This document shows, in pieces, positions 1 through 62,596 of a stretch of DNA of 64,000 nt. The stretch covers positions 5,357,001 through 5,421,000 of the forward strand of contig NC_092670.1 in assembly GCF_964355755.1 (NCBI RefSeq), written 5' to 3'. Below the pieces are notes generated by a model. It was not told the origin of the DNA. It did not search any database and saw only the letters and a list, made by a program, of their open reading frames with translations. Each line of letters starts with the position of its first letter. Within the stretch, counting starts at the first letter, position 1. This stretch comes from Antedon mediterranea. Its lineage: Eukaryota > Echinodermata > Crinoidea > Comatulida > Antedonidae. Both the position numbers and the translations under genes were made by a program.

Positions 1-414
1 GAAATTAGGCATATTCTGTTAATATATTATTCAAAAACAATGGTCTGAATTTCGCGGAATTTTGTTTGCCGCCCTCTACATTACGCAATAAAAAACAACA
101 TGATTTATATACAATTGTTACTTATTATATGTAATAAATAATAAAATAGTAGTAAGTGACATGAATTAACATTCAAATAAACTTTAATAATAATTTTTAT
201 TTTTTACCTTAACCCAATATTATAATTTTGAATTAAATATAATTAAATAATATGTGCAAGTTGAAAGTATTTATGTTCACTGAAACTAAAAAATGGCTGC
301 TCAACGTACTTGGACGATTTCTCAATCGCGAAGATTGATTTATTGTTGGTAGGCTTTGAACCACCGATACATTTCATCGATTAAAACCACTGTAAGAACT
401 ATACTTTTTTAACG
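1..414 (+). promoter_or_regulatory. AGO 5' flank / 5' UTR with an upstream ORF
   Basis: AT-rich DNA before the inferred AGO start. It contains a short upstream ORF (293-352, 19 codons plus stop) whose start aaaATGGCTGC is in a good initiation context. The same string resembles a YY1-type core-promoter motif. The transcription start site cannot be placed, so the ORF may be translated leader or only promoter sequence. Confidence 0.35.
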
Positions 415-22890
<22,476 letters not shown>

Positions 22891-28900: not shown

Positions 28901-29832
28901 GGCTTGTTAGTATAGTCTGAAAAAAATGTAAAATAAAAATATTAGTAGAACTAGAAGTATGATCTTTATTTGTCATTTGCCTGTAGGCAATAAATAAATT
29001 ATAAATAGCGATTTATTTAGCTTTTTGGTGGCCATACTATTTGCTCAATTAATCATGACCGACGACGCAATAGTGCTGAAAACATCGCAGGTTTGATTTC
29101 ACGCAGGCGAGGGCAAACACAATTATTAGAAGGGCATTTTCTTACGTTGCGTAGATTGCGTTACGTCCCCCACCAGGAGTTTCATCCCTGAAAAGTTTCA
29201 CTTTCTTGCAACTTAGCCTGCACGACTTTTATTTCATGTTGACACAGTCTTCTTTTTTTTTGCCTAATTTCCAGGCCATTCTCAGGATCGGATAACCTTC
29301 AGTCTGTTGTTCATCCACCAACTAGGCAGTGCCTCTCTACCTACCTACCTACCCCCCCCCCCCCTACTAATAATAGGCCTAGGCCCTCTAGATAGATTAA
29401 GAGGCAATTTAGACTTTAGTTAGGCCTAGTAACTAGGCCTAGCCTAGTAGTAGGATAGGCCTACAACTTAACAATAACAATACATTTACAACACACAACA
29501 TCACTCACGCCGAAATAAAAACAGGACCGAAACGGACCTACAGTAGCTCCGCACGACCTACTACTACTATAGCAAATTACTATTACCTGTAGTGTGCTAG
29601 GCCTCTACTTTACCCAACCTTAAGTGAAAAATCAATAGGTCTAGCTAGGCCTAAAGGTAGGGTAGGCTGCACTTAATACGCACCACCTGCCTGCTGCATG
29701 CTGCTTGGATGATCCCTGTGATGTGACGTTTGTGGCTCTGGACAAAGAATATAAATGATATTCTTTGCTCTGGATCATATTTTTGAACAGCGCCACCAAT
29801 TTATGGGGCCCAATTTCCCTGGATCCCCCATT
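28901..29832. other. 5' flank of the CCDC127-like gene
   Basis: Contains the probable 5' UTR intron (acceptor at about 28919 on the minus strand), a poly-C run near 29353-29364 and aggcctag simple sequence at 29375-29460 and 29640-29665. No protein-coding signal seen. The less AT-rich 29640-29720 stretch could be the promoter region. Confidence 0.4.
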
Positions 29833-31005
29833 AAAGGGGAACCAATAAAGGGGAACCAATAAAGGGGAACCAATAAAGGGGAACCAATAAAGGGGAACCA
29901 ATAAAGGGGAACCAATAAAGGGGAACCAATAAAGGGGAACCAATAAAGGGGAACCAATAAAGGGGAACCAATAAAGGGGAACCAATAAAGGGGAACCAAT
30001 AAAGGGGAACCAATAAAGGGGAACCAATAAAGGGGAACCAATAAAGGGGAACCAATAAAGGGGAACCAATAAAGGGGAACCAATAAAGGGGAACCAATAA
30101 AGGGGAACCAATAAAGGGGAACCAATAAAGGGGAACCAATAAAGGGGAACCAATAAAGGGGAACCAATAAAGGGGAACCAATAAAGGGGAACCAATAAAG
30201 GGGAACCAATAAAGGGGAACCAATAAAGGGGAACCAATAAAGGGGAACCAATAAAGGGGAACCAATAAAGGGGAACCAATAAAGGGGAACCAATAAAGGG
30301 GAACCAATAAAGGGGAACCAATAAAGGGGAACCAATAAAGGGGAACCAATAAAGGGGAACCAATAAAGGGGAACCAATAAAGGGGAACCAATAAAGGGGA
30401 ACCAATAAAGGGGAACCAATAAAGGGGAACCAATAAAGGGGAACCAATAAAGGGGAACCAATAAAGGGGAACCAATAAAGGGGAACCAATAAAGGGGAAC
30501 CAATAAAGGGGAACCAATAAAGGGGAACCAATAAAGGGGAACCAATAAAGGGGAACCAATAAAGGGGAACCAATAAAGGGGAACCAATAAAGGGGAACCA
30601 ATAAAGGGGAACCAATAAAGGGGAACCAATAAAGGGGAACCAATAAAGGGGAACCAATAAAGGGGAACCAATAAAGGGGAACCAATAAAGGGGAACCAAT
30701 AAAGGGGAACCAATAAAGGGGAACCAATAAAGGGGAACCAATAAAGGGGAACCAATAAAGGGGAACCAATAAAGGGGAACCAATAAAGGGGAACCAATAA
30801 AGGGGAACCAATAAAGGGGAACCAATAAAGGGGAACCAATAAAGGGGAACCAATAAAGGGGAACCAATAAAGGGGAACCAATAAAGGGGAACCAATAAAG
30901 GGGAACCAATAAAGGGGAACCAATAAAGGGGAACCAATAAAGGGGAACCAATAAAGGGGAACCAATAAAGGGGAACCAATAAAGGGGAACCAATAAAGGG
31001 GAACC
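29833..31005. repeat. 14-bp satellite array, about 84 copies, essentially invariant
   Basis: Unit aaaggggaaccaat repeated head to tail over 1173 bp (83.8 copies). I saw no variant unit. Because 14 is not a multiple of 3 and the minus-strand unit lacks stops, all three minus frames stay open and give 382-464-aa ORFs of a 14-residue PLYWFPFIGSPLLV repeat. These are an arithmetic consequence of the repeat, not genes. Each unit carries a GGGG tract and a CCAAT pentamer. Confidence 0.97.
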
Positions 31006-44576: not shown

Positions 44577-45495
44577 CAAGATTCGATAGTACCTGTAAAT
44601 GAGAATTATAATAAATATTCGGCAATACCGTACGTAAATTATTATTGCAATACTGTATAAAGATTCGATAGTATGTAAACAAGATATAAATATTCGGCAA
44701 TACCGTACGTAAATTATTAATGCAATACTGTATAAAGATTCGATAGTATGTAAACAAGATATAAATATTCGGCAATACCGTACATAAATTATTATTTAAT
44801 GCAATACTGTATAAAGATTCGATTAAGTCTGTAAATGAGATATCAAGATTCGGCAATACCGTACGTAAATTATTAATGCAATATTGTATAAAGATTCGAT
44901 AGTATGTAAAAATGAGATATAAAGATTCGGAAATACCGTACGTAAATTATTAATGCAATACTGTAAAGATTCAATAGTATGTAAACGAGATATAAAGATT
45001 CGGCAATACCGTACGTAAATTATTAATGCAATACTGTATAAAGATTCAATAGTACATATGTCAAATGAGATATCAAGATTCGGCAATACCGTACGTAAAT
45101 TATTAATGCAATACTGTATAAAGATTCGATAGTATGTAAAAATGAGATATAAAGATTCGGCAATACCGTACGTAAATTATTGCAATACTGTATAAAGATT
45201 CAATAGTATGTAAACGAGATATAAAGATTTGGCAATACCGTATACGTAAATTATTAATGCAATACTGTATAAAGATTCGATAGTATATAAACGAGATATA
45301 AATATTCGGCAATACCGTACGTAAATTATTATTGCAATACTGTATAAAGATTCAATAGTATGTAAATGAGATATAAAGATTCGGCAATACCGTACGTAAA
45401 TTATTAATGCAATACTGTATAAAATTCGATAGTATGTAAATGAGATATTAATATTCGGCAATACCGTACGTAAATTATTATTGCAATACTGTATT
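44577..45495. repeat. 75-bp minisatellite, about 12 copies
   Basis: Unit of roughly taaagattcgatagtatgta ... aatattcggcaataccgtac ... attaatgcaatactgta, period 73-81, with copies starting near 44658, 44733, 44814, 44889, 44963, 45037, 45117, 45190, 45268, 45345 and 45419. It gives long but meaningless minus-strand ORFs (87-97 aa) because the period is close to a multiple of three. Confidence 0.95.
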
Positions 45496-47263: not shown

Positions 47264-49231
47264 ATGAAGTACAAATGTGAACACTGTGGAGATAAATTTG
47301 AATTCAGTGATCTGAAGGTACATTTAGGAATACATACACAGATAGCATTAAAATGTGAACATTACCAACAAGAGACAATATTGTATAATGAAGATGATTT
47401 TAAAACACTTTTTTTAGTAAGAGTAGATAAACAAGACAAAATAAATGAAAATCAACATTGTGGGAGGAATTTGAAAATGAACACAGCTGAGAAATCTTTT
47501 GAATGTGAACATTGTGGGAAGACATTTAAAGAAAGTGGAAATTTAGAAACACATTTGAGAATACATACAAGAGAGACACCATTTGAATGTGAACATTGTG
47601 GGAAGAAATTTAAAGAAAGTAGAAATTTAGAAACACATTTGAGAATACATACAAGAGAGACACCATTTGAATGTGAACATTGTGGGAAGAAATTTAAGGA
47701 TAGTGGAAATTTAGAAACACATTTGAGAATACATACAAGAGAGACACCATTTGAATGTGAACATTGTGGGAAGAAATTTAAAGAAAGTAGAAATTTAGCA
47801 ACACATTTGAGAATACATACAAGAGAGACACCATTTGAATGTGAACATTGTGGGAAGAAATTTAAGGATAGTGGAAATTTAGAAACACATTTGAGAATAC
47901 ATACAAGTGAGACACCATTTGAATGTGAACATTGTGGGAAGAAATTTAAAGAAAGTGGACATTTGAAAACACATTTGAGAATACATACAAAAGAGACACC
48001 ATTTGAATGTGAGCATTGTGGGAAGAAATTTAAAGAAAGTAGAAATTTAGCAACACATTTGAGAATACATACAAGAGAGACACCATTTGAATGTGAACAT
48101 TGTGGGAAGAAATTTAAGGATAGTGGAAATTTAGAAACACATTTGAGAATACATACAAGAGAGACACCATTTGAATGTGAACATTGTGGGAAGAAATTTA
48201 AAGAGAGTGGAAATTTAGAAACACATTTGAGAATACATACAAGAGAGACACTATTTCAATGTGAACTATGTGGGAAGAAATTTAAAGGAAGTGGAAATTT
48301 AAAAAGACATTTGAGAATACATACAAGAGAGACACCATTTGAATGTGAACATTGTGGGAAGAAATTTAAAGAAAGTGGACATTTGAAAACACATTTGAGA
48401 ATACATACAAAAGAGACACCATTTGAATGTGAGCATTGTGGGAAGAAATTTAAAGAAAGTGGACATTTGAAAACACATTTGAGAATACATACAAAAGAAT
48501 CACCATTTGAATGTGAACATTGTGGGAAGAAATTTAAAGAAAGTGGACATTTGAAAACACATTTGAGAATACATACAAAAGAGACACCATTTGAATGTGA
48601 ACATTGTGGGAAGAAATTTAAAGAAAGTGGACATTTGAAAACACATTTGAGAATACATACAAAAGAGACACCATTTGAATGTGAACATTGTGGGAAGAAA
48701 TTTAAAGAAAGTGGACATTTGAAAACACATTTGAGAATACATACAAGAGAGACACCATTTGAATGTGAACATTGTGGGAAGAAATTTAAACAAAAAGGAA
48801 ATTTAAAAACACATTTGAGAATACATACAAAAGAGACACCATTTGAATGTGAACATTGTGGGAAGAAATTTAACCACAAGGGAGATTTCAAAAAGCATTT
48901 GAGAATACACACAGGAGAGACACCATTTGAATGTGAACATTGTGGGAAGAAATTTAAAGAAAGTGGAAATTTAGAAACACATTTGAGAATACATACAAGA
49001 GAGACACCATTTGAATGTGAACATTGTGGGAAGAAATTTAAAGAAAGTAGAAATTTAGAAACACATTTGAGAATACATACAAGAGAGACACCATTTGAAT
49101 GTGAACATTGTGGGAAGAAATTTAAAGAAAGTAGAAATTTAGAAACACATTTGAGAATACATACAGTACAAGAGAGACACCATTTGAATGTGAACATTGT
49201 GGGAAGAAATTTAAAACAAGTGGGAATTTGA
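47264..49231 (+). CDS. Tandem C2H2 zinc-finger array, 5' part (21 fingers), ends by frameshift
   Basis: Probable DNA-binding nuclear protein. Start taken at 47264 ([12 protein letters not shown]); the ORF is open from 47138, but a tactgtaataatacag acceptor at about 47215 suggests that the first part is intron. After one diverged finger and a degenerate stretch (about residues 25-70) come 20 near-identical 28-residue fingers of the form [18 protein letters not shown], joined by a [11 protein letters not shown] or HTKETPF linker instead of canonical TGEKP. The DNA unit is 84 bp. Helix variation is small (ESGN, ESRN, DSGN, ESGH, QKGN, NHKGD). A 5-bp insertion at about 49166-49170 shifts the frame into a stop after a garbled tail (VQERHHLN...). 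No effector domain. Confidence 0.8.
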
Positions 49232-50610
49232 AAATTCATTTGAGAATACACACAGTAGATACACCATATGCATGTGAACATTGTGAGAAGAAATTTAAAC
49301 AAAGTGGAAATTTAAAAACACATTTGAGAATACATACAAGAGTTACATCATTTGAATGTGAACATTTTGGGAAGAAATTTAACCACAAGGGAGATTTCAA
49401 AAAGCATTTGAGAATACACACAGGAGAGACACCATTAGAATGTGAACATTGTGGGAAGAAATTTAAATTAAGTGGAAATTTAAAAACACATTTGAGAATA
49501 CATACAAGAGAGACACCACTTGAATGTAAACATTGTGGGAAGAAATTTAAAGAAAGTAGAAATTTAGAAACACATTTGAGAATACATACAAGAGAGACAC
49601 CATTTGAATGTGAACATTGTGGGAAGAAATTTAAACAAAAAGGAAATTTAATAACACATTTGAGAATACATACAAGAGAGACACCATTTGAATGTGAACA
49701 TTGTGGGAAGAAATTTGAAACAAGTGGGAATTTGAAAATTCATTTGAGAATACACACTGGAGAGACACCATTTGAATGTGAACATTGTGGGAAGAAATTT
49801 AAACAAAGTGGAAATTTGAAAATGCATTTGAGAATACACACAGTAGATACACCATATGCATGTCAACATTGTGAGAAGAAATTTAAAGAAAGTGAAAATT
49901 TAAAAATACATTTGAGAATACACATAAGAGAGACACCATTTGAATGTGAACATTGTGGGAAGAAATTTAACCACAAGGGGGATTTCAAAAAGCATTTGAG
50001 AATACACACAGGAGAGACACCATTTGAATGTGAACATTGTGGGAAGAAATTTAAACAAAATGGAAGTTTAGAAAGACATTTGAGAATACATACAAGAGAG
50101 ACACCATATGGATGTGAACATTGTGGGAAGAAATTTAAAGAAAGTGGAAGTTTAAAAAGACATTTGAGAATACATGCAGGAGAGACACCATTTGAATGTG
50201 AACATTGTGGGAAGAAATTTAAACAAAGTGGAAGTTTAAAAAGACATTTGAGAATACATACAAGAGAGACACCATATGGATGTGAAAATTGTGGGAAGAA
50301 ATTTAAAGAAAGTGGAAGTTTAAAAAGACATTTGAGAATACATACAAGAGAGACACCATATGCATGTGAACATTGTGGGAAGAAATTTGGACAAAGTGGA
50401 AACTTGAAAAAGCATTTAAGAATACACACAGGAGAGACACATTTTGAATGTAAACATTGTGGGAAGAAATTGAACCATAAGGGAGATTTGAAAAAGCATT
50501 TGAGAATACACACAGGATTGAGGTTGAGAATGCACAAAAGAGGGACACCATATAAATGTGAACACGGTGTAAATAAGTTTAAACAAAGTCGGAATTTGAA
50601 AACACATTAG
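49171..50610 (+). pseudogene. Tandem C2H2 zinc-finger array, 3' part (about 17 fingers), out of frame
   Basis: Same array in the frame that follows the 5-bp insertion, open to a stop at 50608. Sixteen recognisable fingers plus a last degenerate one lacking its second cysteine (CEHGVNKF). Another finger has Cys replaced (CEHFGKKF). Fingers here are more varied ([28 protein letters not shown]). An out-of-frame finger remnant ([10 protein letters not shown]) continues at 50640-50670. Either the gene is dying from the 3' end, the insertion is polymorphic or a sequencing error, or the part is translated from an internal start. AATAAA lies at 51061. Confidence 0.6.
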
Positions 50611-54816: not shown

Positions 54817-55202
54817 GGGGTGTCTCGAAAACAGAGACCTCGAAAACAGAGACCAGAGACCCAGGGTCTCTGTTTTCGAGAAAATCTCGAAAACAGAGAC
54901 CCCCACTAAAACGTCTCAATATTACGTAATATAGGGGGTCTCTGTTTTCGAGTTCTCGAAAACAGAGACCCCACTAAAACGTCTCAATATTACGTTATAT
55001 AGGGGGTCTCAGAGATCCCCTATATAACGTAATATTGACTTAATATTGAGACATTTTAGTGGGGGTCTCTGTTTTCGAGAACTCAAAAACAGAGACCCCC
55101 CTATATTACGTAATATTGAGACGTTTTAGTGGGGTCTCTGTTTTCGAGATTTTCTCAAAAACAGAGACCCTGGGTCTCTGGTCTCTGTTTTCGAGACACC
55201 CC
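54817..55202. repeat. Nested 386-bp palindrome built from GGTCTCTGTTTTCGAG
   Basis: Centre near 55010. The arms are almost perfect complements (ggggtgtctcgaaaacagag at the left edge, ctctgttttcgagacacccc at the right edge). Within each arm the 16-mer ggtctctgttttcgag and its complement alternate, making smaller hairpins, separated by cactaaaacgtctcaatatt-acgt segments. About 11 copies of the 16-mer in total. No coding potential. Confidence 0.95.
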
Positions 55203-56735: not shown

Positions 56736-59700
56736 ATGTTAACATTAATTCATCTGAAGGTTTTAGCAATATTATCAATTTATATTTTTATAGCACAGGT
56801 AAGTGTTTTGTTTGCTTTATTTTAGAATTGTCTAGCCTAGCTAGGGCCTAGCTAGATAGGCTAGGCTAGGCCTCTAGGTAGGCCTAATGTCTTTATTATC
56901 AATCAGTAAGAAGGCGAGGCCTAGTAGGGTAGCCTAGGTTATGTACACTGTGTGTGTGTGACAATTTGCTGTACATGTAAACTGTAAGCTTATTAGACCT
57001 AGATAAGCCTACATTTTAAGGAACATTACTGTATATAGTTAGGGACTGGCATATATTTTTTAATTTATCTTTCTGCATTTGAATAGTGTTCAGTTTGAAA
57101 GAGTATATAATCGTAAGCATTTTAAACTTTAAATCAACAAAATTGATTGAGTATTTAGAAAGTTATGAATAAAATAAGGTGTAAAAATTTGGCACCATCA
57201 CTAGGCCTACTATGCTTTGTTTACATAGGAATCCCCACCCCGCGTTTGTGACCTTGTACACAAATAGTCACTGGGTGAAAATACTACTAAAACACATATA
57301 AATACATTTTATGAACATATTTTTAATTAGAAAGTTGATGGTGACAAATATATATTTGCATAGTACCACATTTTGTTTGGAAATTGTGTCAAAATCACAA
57401 AAATAAGATAGAAAGTACTTATTTTATGTTTACCCGGCGCTAGTTCCGTTTCGCACCTGTCATTTATTTCGACTCAAAATGTGTTAAGAAACTTTATCGC
57501 GAGTACCACACCTTAGAATTAGGCCTCAAAAATACTTTTACGAAGGAGATCACACAAAAAGTAAAAAATAAATGCTTTAAATTGATGAATTTACAGACGT
57601 GTTTCTCGCACATCGGTTCATCAATTTCGCATACGCCATGTTCAATGTTGTTGTTTCTATGGAGCGCCAAAGGAGCAATCATAATAGAGGGCTAAAAACT
57701 CAATATAATGCGTATATTTAATGCATTTATTGGTGAAAATTACGTTCAATTTTACTATACTGTATTTTGTCAATGTCAATGCAACAAAACCCTAGGCCTA
57801 AATCAGCATCACTACCATGGAGTAATCACTACCTAGCCTAGGCCTAATAAGACTAAGAGGAATATTATTTAGATCATTGAGGTATAAATAAAAACTACAG
57901 TACATGTAATATGATGATGAATTTGTCGATTTTCATTCTTAAAAGTTAACGAAAACTGCGAAAACCATGTACAGTATCAACAGTAACATTTTTTTTTGCA
58001 TTGACATTGACAAAATATATTAAAATTGAACGTAATTTTCACCAATAAATGCATTAAATATACGCATTATATTGAGTTTTTAGCCCTCTATTATGATTGC
58101 TCTTTTGGCGCTCCATAAAAACTACAACATTGAACATGGCGTATGGAACCGATGTGCGAGAAACACGTCTGTAAATTCATCACTTTAAAGCATTTATTTT
58201 TTACTTTTTGTGTGATCTCCTTCGTAAAAGTATTTTTGAGGCCTAATTCTAAGGTGTGGTACTCACGATAAAGTTTCTTAACACATTTTGAGTCGAAATA
58301 AATGACAGGTGCGAAACGGAACTAGCGCCGTTTACCCTCTCCCCGGACTGCGCGAATGTCCCGGAGGAATACCCCCACCTCAGCCAGGCTGTGTGATGAC
58401 GTCATCAGGCACTTCGCGGCCTAGAATTGCTTACTCACCAAGCATCAGGTGATTAAAAACCTTTTGTGATCCAATATAGGTGATATTTATGTAAAACCAA
58501 AAATTTTACTAACATTTCGAGCCCAAAATAAAATGTCATCGCGAAGACATGTGGGCAAAGGAATTTCAAATTTTTCATCGGAATTTTCCGGAAAAGATCG
58601 TACAGTCATTCGTTTTTTCTGAATAGCCAATCAGAGTTCGTAAATTCATGCGCAAGTTGACCCCTTTTTAACAGGTTAAGGGTCGCACTTGTCTATTCCC
58701 TAAATATGTCTGCTGCCCTCTAGCGGTTTTGCTAGTCGCTAATATAGTGATTATGATGTGTACATATTCTTTGTCATCAATCTTTTTCATTTAAATATTT
58801 ATTTATTAGAAAAACAAATGAAAGACAAAGTTTCATGGCTATCATTATCAATAGCATGGCCTAAAAAGAACGCCGTGGCTAAAGATACGGTACCGTATTC
58901 TAACTTCTGTTTATTAAAGGTACGGTAAAATTGCATTACGTCATAATCACCCAAATGGGGTGCTGGTACGTGTGTGACGTCATCGTATAAGGACTTTGGA
59001 TTTTTTTCATATCGCGAAAACATTGATCAACCGCATTTTCTTTATGCTTCATTTATCGCCGTCCTGTGTGACAAAAACTAAATGTAGCCTACGTCTGTTA
59101 TTATTATTGAAAAGCCAAAACATGTTGATTTTAATTCTAGAATACAGAAAACCGTTTCAAAAGAGGCCTAGGCCTACTTACTACGTACTATAACCTCATA
59201 TAAGTTTGTTTGTGTAAGGAAAGCGATGCCAGGCTGCATTGATGACCGAATAAATATTATTATTATTATTATTATTATGTGTGCGCTGATTTCTGTGACT
59301 CAGCCCCGAAATCATAGTATTTGTTGAGGGCCCCTTTATTGTCCGCATTTGCTTGTTGCATTGTAAACAAAGTTTAATAAAAAATATACTGTAGGCCTAA
59401 ATAGGCCATTTGGAATAAAAATTAAAACCCTCACACATCCATGCAGCCTGGCGCCGCCGACAGGAATTCTCTACATACAACAGATGCGATATGAAAAAAA
59501 ATCGAAAGTCCTTATACGATGACGTCACACACACGTACCAGCACCCCATTGGCTGATTATGACGTAATACAATTTTACCGTACCTTTAGTAAACAGAAGT
59601 TAGAATACGGTACCGTATCTTTAGCCACGGCGTAAAAAAACCTTGTGTGATTGCTGAACGTGCATACTTTAGCATTGTTTTTTTTTTAAATTGAGGTAAA

Positions 59701-62596
59701 CTAATAACTAAAATAACCCGAATTATTATGTACAGTACAAGTAATAAGTAAAATAATAAAACAAGCCATATCAAGTCACTAATCCTTATAGGTGGTATTA
59801 ATTTCTACCAGTATGTCAGACCATACCCTCATGATGTTGAAATTCAAACTTTCTAGTAAGAACTTTAAACCATTAGAAAGTAACTGATTCATGTAACTTT
59901 CAAATTGCTGGCAGTGAGTGTGTAACATCATCTGGATGCTATCAATTAGGCCGCATTCATCAGATTTATATAACATTCAATTTTGTTTTTGTTGGGTTCG
60001 AAAAATGAAAGGAGAATTTGATCAAATCTTAAATTTGTTGCTTCTTGAAATTGAATCAGAAAATCTGAAAATTAAGTAGGTTAGGATAATATTAAAAGTA
60101 GTGCATAACTGTAGTTTTATTTCTTAATTTAAAAGGATGTAAATTGTGCCCTAAAAATAGGCCTACTGAAATTTTAAGTTACATAGTACAACCCCTTCAA
60201 TTGTAAGATAACTTATTTTGATAAACCCATAAACCATTATGTAATGCTGGGTCAATACAATTTATAATCAGTATAGCACTCTCTACTATCTATTCTAGGT
60301 GCCAATATTTGTTTAAATATAACAACTGTCAGTGCCATTGAGATATAATTGGCCTACAGTATTTCAAAATCTCTTGGAATAGGTTCTTTGAAAGAAAACA
60401 TTATACAAAGCATTGCAATGCAATTTGTTACATTTAGGATTTAAGATTGGGTGTCAATCTTATATAAATGACCCTTGGCCTTTCAAGTACAGTTGTGTTA
60501 TTGATTTTAATAAAAACTAAATTGTTCATAATTTCCACACCGTCAATGATTAATTTAAGCACTTTTTACTATAAAAAATTTCACATTTTAAGTTAAGACA
60601 TGTTTTCAAAAGAATAATATTTATTATTTTTAATTATGTTTTAGTAACATGGTTATTAGCATTTAGATTTTTTCCCAAATGTTCAAATTTAATGAAATTG
60701 TTTTTCTTTCTTGTAACAGAGTGCTAAAGTTATTCATGAACCAGGCCGATGTATATGGTACGATCAATGCGGAACAAATCCTGATACAGGCAAGCCAGTA
60801 AACTGCTTTTATAATGGCAAAGCAAAGCCTCTAATGGATCCAGAAGGACTTAAAATTCTGAATGATCTCTGTCCATGGTTAGTAACTGGTGACCACCCAC
60901 TGACATGCTGTTCAACATCACAGATGAAGACATTTCAAGGAAGTCTCCAAGTTCCCCAGCAGACGTTCGCAAGATGTCCTTCATGTTATCGTAACTTTGC
61001 CAACCTCTACTGTATGATGACATGCAGTCCTGATAACAGTCTTTTTGTAAATCCAACGAAAGTTATAAATGTCACAGATTCTTCTTATTTGAAAATTGAA
61101 AAACTGACCCCAAAGGACATCGGTCAAGATGTAACCAATGAGGAAATTAAAGAAACAAAAGTACTTGCCGCAGAAAATTCCCCGAAAAACATCACCAATT
61201 CTACTACCGCCATCACTTCCATCGATTACATTTTAGCACATGATTACGCTGATGGATTCTATAATTCTTGCTACCATGTCAACTTTCCAAGTTCAAATGT
61301 GAAAGCATTATCTCTTTTCTGCGGTCTTTGTGGCGGCTATGATAAATGCGCACCAGAATGTTTCCTCAATTTCATGGGTGACATCAACAATGGACAGACA
61401 CCGTTTGCCATTAATTTCACAATCACCGATAATCCACTTCCAGATAACATGGTAGCCGCTAACCACACTGCTCATAAATGTAGTGAGGGCGTAGGCAACA
61501 GCTCACTACCTTGCAGTTGTCAGGATTGCCCGGCAACGTGTCCACCATCGCCACCACGTCCAATGCCCACACCGCCGTGTATGGTAGGTAAATTAGGCTG
61601 TGTCACTTTTGCTATGATAATGGGTTTTATTGCTTTTGTAATGGTTTTTACCTTGGCGTTTATATGCTGTGTAAAATCTAACAAATGTCACCAAGGAACC
61701 TCGCTTAACGCAGCAAATGAGGATATATTTTATCGTAAGCCAGCGATCACAGAGAAAGATGTCGGATGTCGGGAATCTATTGGACAGAAAGAACAGCAGA
61801 TGCTCAACATGCTATTCCAAAAGTGGGGAACGATGTGTGCTGGTCATCCGTTTGTCGTTCTCTTCATCGGACTTGTCGTCATTTGTGGAGCGGGTATTGG
61901 CATCAGACAGTTTATAGTCATCACAGATCCAGTTGAATTGTGGTCACCACCAAAGAGCCAGTCAAGATTGGAGAAGAACTACTTCGATGACAACTTTGGA
62001 CCTTTCTATCGCACGGAACAACTCATTATCACAGCTCCATCATTTCATGCAAAACCATATGAAACCTACCAAGGTGAGACCATTCCATTCGGACCAGTCT
62101 TACAGAAAGAAATTTTGCACCAGGTTAGTGATATTCACTGCTACAGTACTGTACCCGAACTAATACCCTACTTATATTTACATCTGGACTGGGACAATGA
62201 CACCAAATTAAATCCCTTACAATTACATAATGTGATATTATTACACTACTAAGACCCCATTGTCGTAGATGATTTGATTAACATTTCTCTTTTTATTGTA
62301 TTGATGAACTAAAATGTACTGTGCTTTTGTGGGTGGTGAAAATGAAACCTTTGTTTATTTTCTTCCTAAAAGGTTTTGGATCTTCAAGATAGCATTGCGA
62401 ATCTGAAAGTTCCTTATAAAGACTCAACCATCACCTTAGACGATATCTGTTACAAGCCTCTATCTGAGAACTGTACCATAATGAGCGTCCTTAACTATTG
62501 GCAGAATAGCCATAAAGAACTGGACAGGGTACAGAAGGACCAGCAAGGATTCTGGACAGTGGCAGACTATCATGACCACTTTATGGCATGCATTGT
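56736..62596 (+). CDS. NPC1: NPC intracellular cholesterol transporter 1, 5' part (first 3 exons)
   Basis: Late-endosome/lysosome membrane protein that takes cholesterol from NPC2 and exports it. Exons 56736-56798 (21 codons), 60720-62123 (468 codons, unusually large) and 62373-62596 (phase 2 end); the gene runs off the right edge. Residues 1-21 are a signal peptide (LKVLAILSIYIFIAQ). The Cys-rich sterol-binding N-terminal domain follows (CIWYDQCGTN, CPWLVTG, CCSTSQM, CPSCYRNFANLYCMMTCSP) with several NxS/T sites. A proline-rich linker (PPSPPRPMPTPP) precedes TM1 at about 314-339 and TM2 at about 398-416. Next comes TDPVELWSPPKSQSRLEKNY, a hallmark of NPC1-type proteins, and then lumenal domain 2. 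NPC1L1 is possible but that split is vertebrate; an invertebrate pro-orthologue is likelier. Confidence 0.95.
57436..58329. mobile_element. Long-TIR element, about 340-bp arms, 8-bp target-site duplication (NPC1 intron 1)
   Basis: Left arm 57436-57783 and right arm about 57997-58329 are near-identical inverted copies (ends ggcgctagttcc / ggaactagcgcc). They differ by a few substitutions and small indels (the left arm has an extra tcatcaatttcg-like block near 57620). The spacer is about 210 bp. The direct repeat GTTTACCC flanks it exactly (57428-57435 and 58330-58337). No transposase. An 8-bp duplication fits hAT, Merlin or MULE-type elements. Confidence 0.93.
58870..59633. mobile_element. Second long-TIR element, about 160-bp arms (NPC1 intron 1)
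   Basis: acgccgtggctaaagatacg at 58870 is mirrored by gtatctttagccacggcgt ending at 59633. The arms continue through tacggtaccgtattctaac, gacgtcatcgtataagga and a tatga/tcata end, to about 59025 and from about 59488. The spacer includes a LINE-like tail (gaccgaataaatattattat, 59247-59280). The target duplication is obscured by A-runs. Confidence 0.85.
59252..59279 (+). repeat. (TTA)n microsatellite
   Basis: About eight att/tta units directly after gaccgaataaat, typical of a CR1/Daphne-like LINE 3' end. Confidence 0.85.
59634..60719 (+). other. Remainder of NPC1 intron 1
   Basis: AT-rich, without recognisable genes or elements. It ends in tttctttcttgtaacag before exon 2. Confidence 0.6.

Follow-up and report, generated by a model that had tools for sequence, protein, structure and literature searches.

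The window, meaning the whole analysed stretch of Antedon mediterranea DNA (64,000 nucleotides of contig NC_092670.1), contains an NPC1 gene whose first intron carries a long hairpin-forming element, and an AGO gene on the same strand. Scanning 54.1-60.7 kb for a hydrophobic leader followed by a good donor yielded a single candidate first exon, 56736-56798, which is in phase with exon 2. Since this candidate ends at 56798 and exon 2 begins at 60720, the element lies within NPC1 intron 1, as the initial annotation had proposed. The features of this part of the gene are as follows.

56736..56798, plus strand: coding part of NPC1 exon 1, encoding the signal peptide, MLTLIHLKVLAILSIYIFIAQ; donor CAG/GTAAGT, phase 0
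56799..60719, plus strand: NPC1 intron 1, which hosts the element
about 58870-59633 (also delimited as 58868-59640), plus strand: second inverted-repeat MITE in NPC1 intron 1, separate from the hairpin; arms of 149 nt at 94.6%
60720..62252, plus strand: NPC1 exon 2 region, covering NPC1_N (Pfam, E 7e-65) and the start of the middle luminal domain; the 3' end of the exon may differ from 62252

Near-full-length relatives of the second MITE number in the dozens and are 80-86% identical, which makes its family older than that of the hairpin; that the same intron holds another hairpin-forming element shows such structures to be commonplace here. Other repeats in the window include a 14-bp tandem repeat, CCAATAAAGGGGAA, at 29828-31005 (84 near-perfect copies, 99%, giving spurious long open frames); a 75-bp tandem repeat at 44611-45494 (11.6 copies at 90%); about 36 tandem 84-bp units encoding C2H2 zinc fingers at 47498-50514 (90% identity, with frame breaks at ~49.2 kb); and, between the zinc-finger gene and NPC1, a mirrored GGGTCTCTGTTTTCGAG repeat block at 54830-55200, which is another palindromic structure. 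The exons of the AGO gene run from 3552 to ~18.9 kb, and all four catalytic motifs are present, GADVTHP, RQEI, YRDGVSE, and AYYAHL (DEDH), in line with a predicted slicer-type protein. A slicer-type AGO encoded 35 kb away had been offered in favor of an RNA role for the hairpin. The slicer motifs are there, and the distance is ~38 kb rather than 35 kb; proximity fails as an argument, because AGO acts in trans and the distance of its gene has no bearing on the hairpin.

The near-perfect long inverted repeat and its 8-bp flanking duplication, both described in the initial annotation, were recovered at exactly the coordinates given there. The parts of the element are as follows.

57428..57435, plus strand: left copy of the target site duplication (TSD), GTTTACCC, a perfect match to the right copy
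57436..57790, plus strand: left arm, at the B-end position, replaced by A-type sequence in an ancestor
57500, plus strand: the sole private substitution of the window copy, C where five sister copies have T
57791..57990, plus strand: loop, 200 bp, across the junction at which the long element, L041, has lost its interior; pieces of the loop match L041 615-730 and 7660-7694
57991..58329, minus strand: right arm, A-type end, matching the right end of L041 at 92%; both arms fall in the A clade
58330..58337, plus strand: right copy of the TSD, GTTTACCC

The element proper (57436-58329) is 894 bp long, begins with GGCGCTAGTTCCG and ends with CGGAACTAGCGCC, and has arms of 355 and 339 bp that are 98% identical over aligned bases, with 6-7 mismatches and ~15 gap columns that take in an indel of 10 bp and another of 5 bp. 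The predicted RNA fold of the stretch has an energy of -588 kcal/mol, against -196 +/- 8 in shuffled sequences (n=20; z -49), and thus shows the duplex capacity of a long inverted repeat that is looked for in a hairpin RNA (hpRNA) locus. An Rfam search of the window returned no match.

The same structure recurs throughout the genome. The arm matches many places in the 354-Mb genome, with 1595 candidates at first look, and the terminal 24-mer, allowing up to 2 mismatches, occurs at least 195 times in forward and at least 192 times in reverse orientation genome-wide, against 0 in a reversed control; these copy numbers are lower bounds, since scoring in the genome searches was limited to the best candidates. 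A perfect 8-bp duplication flanks 36 of the 40 distinct insertions that were read, L041 included, and the duplicated sequences differ. The copies L051 (C1:11.51 Mb) and L052 (C1:14.52 Mb), which are in opposite orientation, have a common duplication and a nested arm structure, and therefore either the element-containing segment itself was duplicated or the assembly repeats the segment. Inverted terminal repeats, a TSD of fixed length, many dispersed copies, and internal deletion from a coding element are the features that characterize MITEs, and all of them are found in this family. Judged by its sequence, the hairpin belongs to a dispersed family of non-autonomous foldback transposons (MITEs) and is not a dedicated hairpin-RNA locus. 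Like MITEs and foldback elements in general, the members of this family are short and non-coding, with long inverted ends, duplications of fixed length, many copies, and an origin by internal deletion of a coding element; they differ in that their ends, at ~350 bp, are unusually long and that end replacement has given these ends two states, asymmetric and symmetric.

The coding relative, L041, is 7,824 bp long (219-8042 of its locus) and is flanked by the duplication GGCTAGCC; it shares its ends with the short copies and carries a multi-exon transposase-like gene. The asymmetric short copies align end to end with L041 219-730 (91-96%) and 7651-8042 (96-99%), and one junction, at which ~6.9 kb of L041 is removed, is common to all of them. 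These alignments show most family copies to be, by descent, internal deletions of an L041-type 7.8-kb element of which only the two ends were kept; the short copies are classed as non-autonomous MITE derivatives because they retain the L041 ends and lack the interior from a common junction. The genome search found no currently active source: it turned up a single close long sibling, L041, whose first long reading frame is interrupted by an in-frame stop.

Comparison of the arms reveals how one branch of the family came to form near-perfect hairpins. In the arm tree, which has two clades, the two arms of an asymmetric copy always fall in different clades, and those of symmetric copies both fall in the A clade; arm identity within copies is 84-86% in the former and 96-99.7% in the latter. 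The placement of both symmetric arms in the A clade means that the ancestral B-type end was replaced by an inverted A-type copy, and by this tree end replacement is shown to be the event that made the arms near-identical in the branch that includes the window copy. At sites 217, 222, and 237, the right arm of the copy L003 shows the states of the left arm, of which 237G is derived; this pattern suggests arm-to-arm gene conversion within the element. Most arm-arm differences, namely, the 10-bp and 5-bp indels and those at arm sites 217, 222, 237, and 350, are common to the sister copies. The near-identity of the arms, from which the initial annotation had argued that the insertion is recent, is therefore no basis for dating it, because the differences predate the insertion and replacement or conversion can homogenize arms. 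The comparison of sister copies does date the insertion, and the conclusion holds on this ground: the window copy differs from L002, which lies at another site with another duplication, by 1 mismatch in 894 aligned positions, and in a comparison of six sister copies a single substitution, at 57500, is private to it over the whole 894 bp. By this measure, the insertion in the window is recent.

The course of events may be read as follows. An L041-type element lost its interior and kept its two ends, giving the short non-autonomous family; in one branch the B-type end was replaced by an inverted A-type copy, which produced near-identical arms; and a transposase acting in trans on the common termini probably moved one such copy into NPC1 intron 1, creating the 8-bp TSD. 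The transcribed intron could fold into a dsRNA of ~340 bp, which would most likely be edited, unwound, or degraded with the intron, and any small RNAs arising from it would mainly match the transposon family itself. We hold this full account, an L041-derived MITE with a replaced end, recently mobilized in trans into NPC1 intron 1 and forming dsRNA incidentally, to be very probably correct.

Several other readings were weighed against it. A hairpin made in place by local inverted duplication, with no transposon involved, would account for near-identical arms that flank a unique-looking loop. It was rejected on the evidence of copies across the genome that have the same ends and differing 8-bp duplications, and its probability is close to nil. 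The initial annotation had proposed an endo-siRNA (hpRNA) locus, in which 21-23-nt siRNAs, cut from the hairpin by dicing, would enter the slicer AGO and direct the silencing of a host gene or of the transposon family. The ~340-bp near-perfect duplex in a presumably transcribed intron speaks for this proposal, as do the Dicer-type dimer domains encoded in the genome, the AGO with DEDH motifs, and the occurrence of transposon-derived arms among Drosophila hpRNAs (PMC10317233). Drosophila hpRNA loci likewise consist of a long, transcribable inverted repeat, but the hairpin described here is one of many repeat copies and lies inside the intron of a protein-coding gene. Moreover, hpRNA loci are recognized by Dicer-dependent siRNAs and usually also by a complementary target (PMC10317233), and the search of the window for a host-gene target of the arms yielded nothing better than 31 nt at 84%; the top genome-wide arm matches are copies of the same transposon family, to many of which small-RNA reads would map. 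The structure is fully explained by the transposon ends. In addition, private arm changes in the sister copies break pairs, and no compensating changes were found opposite them (~10 sites, a small sample), weak evidence that gives no sign of selection for arm pairing. An hpRNA locus is thus very unlikely, and siRNA production from the hairpin, although possible, finds no support in the sequence.

If NPC1 is transcribed, dsRNA from its pre-mRNA is plausible, and the presence of both Dicer-type and adenosine-deaminase genes means that dicing and editing are both possible. The genome has several adenosine-deaminase (ADAR-like) loci, and ADAR generally accepts long dsRNA from introns as a substrate, for which it competes with RNAi (PMC4710571). 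Hyper-editing by ADAR, or a change in splicing caused by the intronic hairpin, may therefore be considered, with some effect on NPC1 expression. However, a strong splicing effect is not expected, because the hairpin is more than 630 nt from the intron 1 donor and 2.3 kb from the acceptor, and editing without consequence fits the transposon account equally well; an effect on NPC1 is accordingly doubtful, though it keeps a modest chance. Under the preferred reading of a recently landed MITE, dsRNA is an incidental property of the insertion, and editing or decay with the intron is likelier than siRNA production.

The protein that would mobilize the family was approached through L041 and its relatives. 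Pfam detects a weak DUF6589 match in L041 and L062 and one above the cut-off in L063 (E 1e-6), with a sub-threshold CXC (TCR) match; no P element or hAT signature domains were reported in the Pfam search of the L041-type proteins. A PDB sequence search with the L041 protein gave insignificant matches only, and a literature search on DUF6589 found no paper. The loci L061-L067 hold diverse large transposase-like genes that combine a DUF6589-type core, a FEN1/XPG-type nuclease, and a CXC tail, several of them with uninterrupted frames of more than 1,000 amino acids; relatives in the same genome reach at most ~39% identity to the L041 protein over the full length and 58% over one exon. Structure models were made for relatives at ~39% identity or less to L041, not for L041 itself. 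Residues 627-994 of the L061 relative, which was modeled at a mean pLDDT of 66, match EXO1, FEN1, and XPG with Z-scores from 15.3 to ~11, and the conserved acidic motifs DG, EEAD, DTD, and TGCDTTS-GKGK fit this nuclease family. The model of the L063 DUF6589-type core (mean pLDDT 77, pTM 0.79) has the P element transposase as its top structural match (Z 10.1 over 362 residues, rmsd 5.5, 9% identity), followed at lower scores by ISCth4, Hermes (Z ~7.6), and RAG1, and the DN-D, DQ, and D-EQ motifs conserved in this core may supply the catalytic residues of a DDE enzyme. With Foldseek by itself, neither the L061 nor the L063 model had a match at E <0.001; the statements on fold draw on a VIA-align second look and on motif conservation, to which the 8-bp duplication is added in the case of the DDE core. 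Because the Z-scores are moderate and Foldseek alone is without a match, the assignment is made by the combination of fold, motifs, and 8-bp duplication. With moderate confidence, the relatives of L041 are predicted to contain a DDE transposase core and a FEN1/XPG-type nuclease. No TSD could be delimited for the L061 relative.

Both the P element and hAT superfamilies make 8-bp duplications. They supply the best structural matches of the DUF6589-type core, and both are also like this family in duplication length; the proteins and ends described here differ in the added FEN1-type nuclease, the C-terminal CXC cysteine cluster, and termini starting with GGCGC. AcademX transposons encode a nuclease of the XPG/FEN1 type, and the large transposase-like protein with such a nuclease modeled from the L061 relative resembles theirs. 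PMC10045372 indicates the AcademX nuclease as well and quotes duplications of 3-4 bp for AcademX and 9-10 bp for AcademH, whereas those of the present family are 8 bp. The mobilizing element, compared with AcademX through published descriptions, was not filed there because its duplications are 8 bp rather than the 3-4 bp reported for AcademX.

The hairpin of NPC1 intron 1 illustrates cleanly, in a natural setting, how end replacement followed by transposition can leave a long hairpin in an intron without any RNA function being involved, and it cautions against dating a foldback insertion by the near-identity of its arms. The transposon that presumably mobilizes it is the more unusual part, its nuclease recalling AcademX and its 8-bp duplications not. 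We tentatively raise the possibility, unlikely as it may be, that it belongs to a lineage of animal DNA transposons described poorly or not at all, with a P/hAT-like DDE core of DUF6589 type, a FEN1/XPG nuclease, a CXC tail, 8-bp duplications, and ends that switch from asymmetric to symmetric and spawn near-perfect hairpins. If the lineage is new, it would extend the catalogue by a DDE transposase fused to a nuclease and provide a testable system for the role of a FEN1-type nuclease in transposition.
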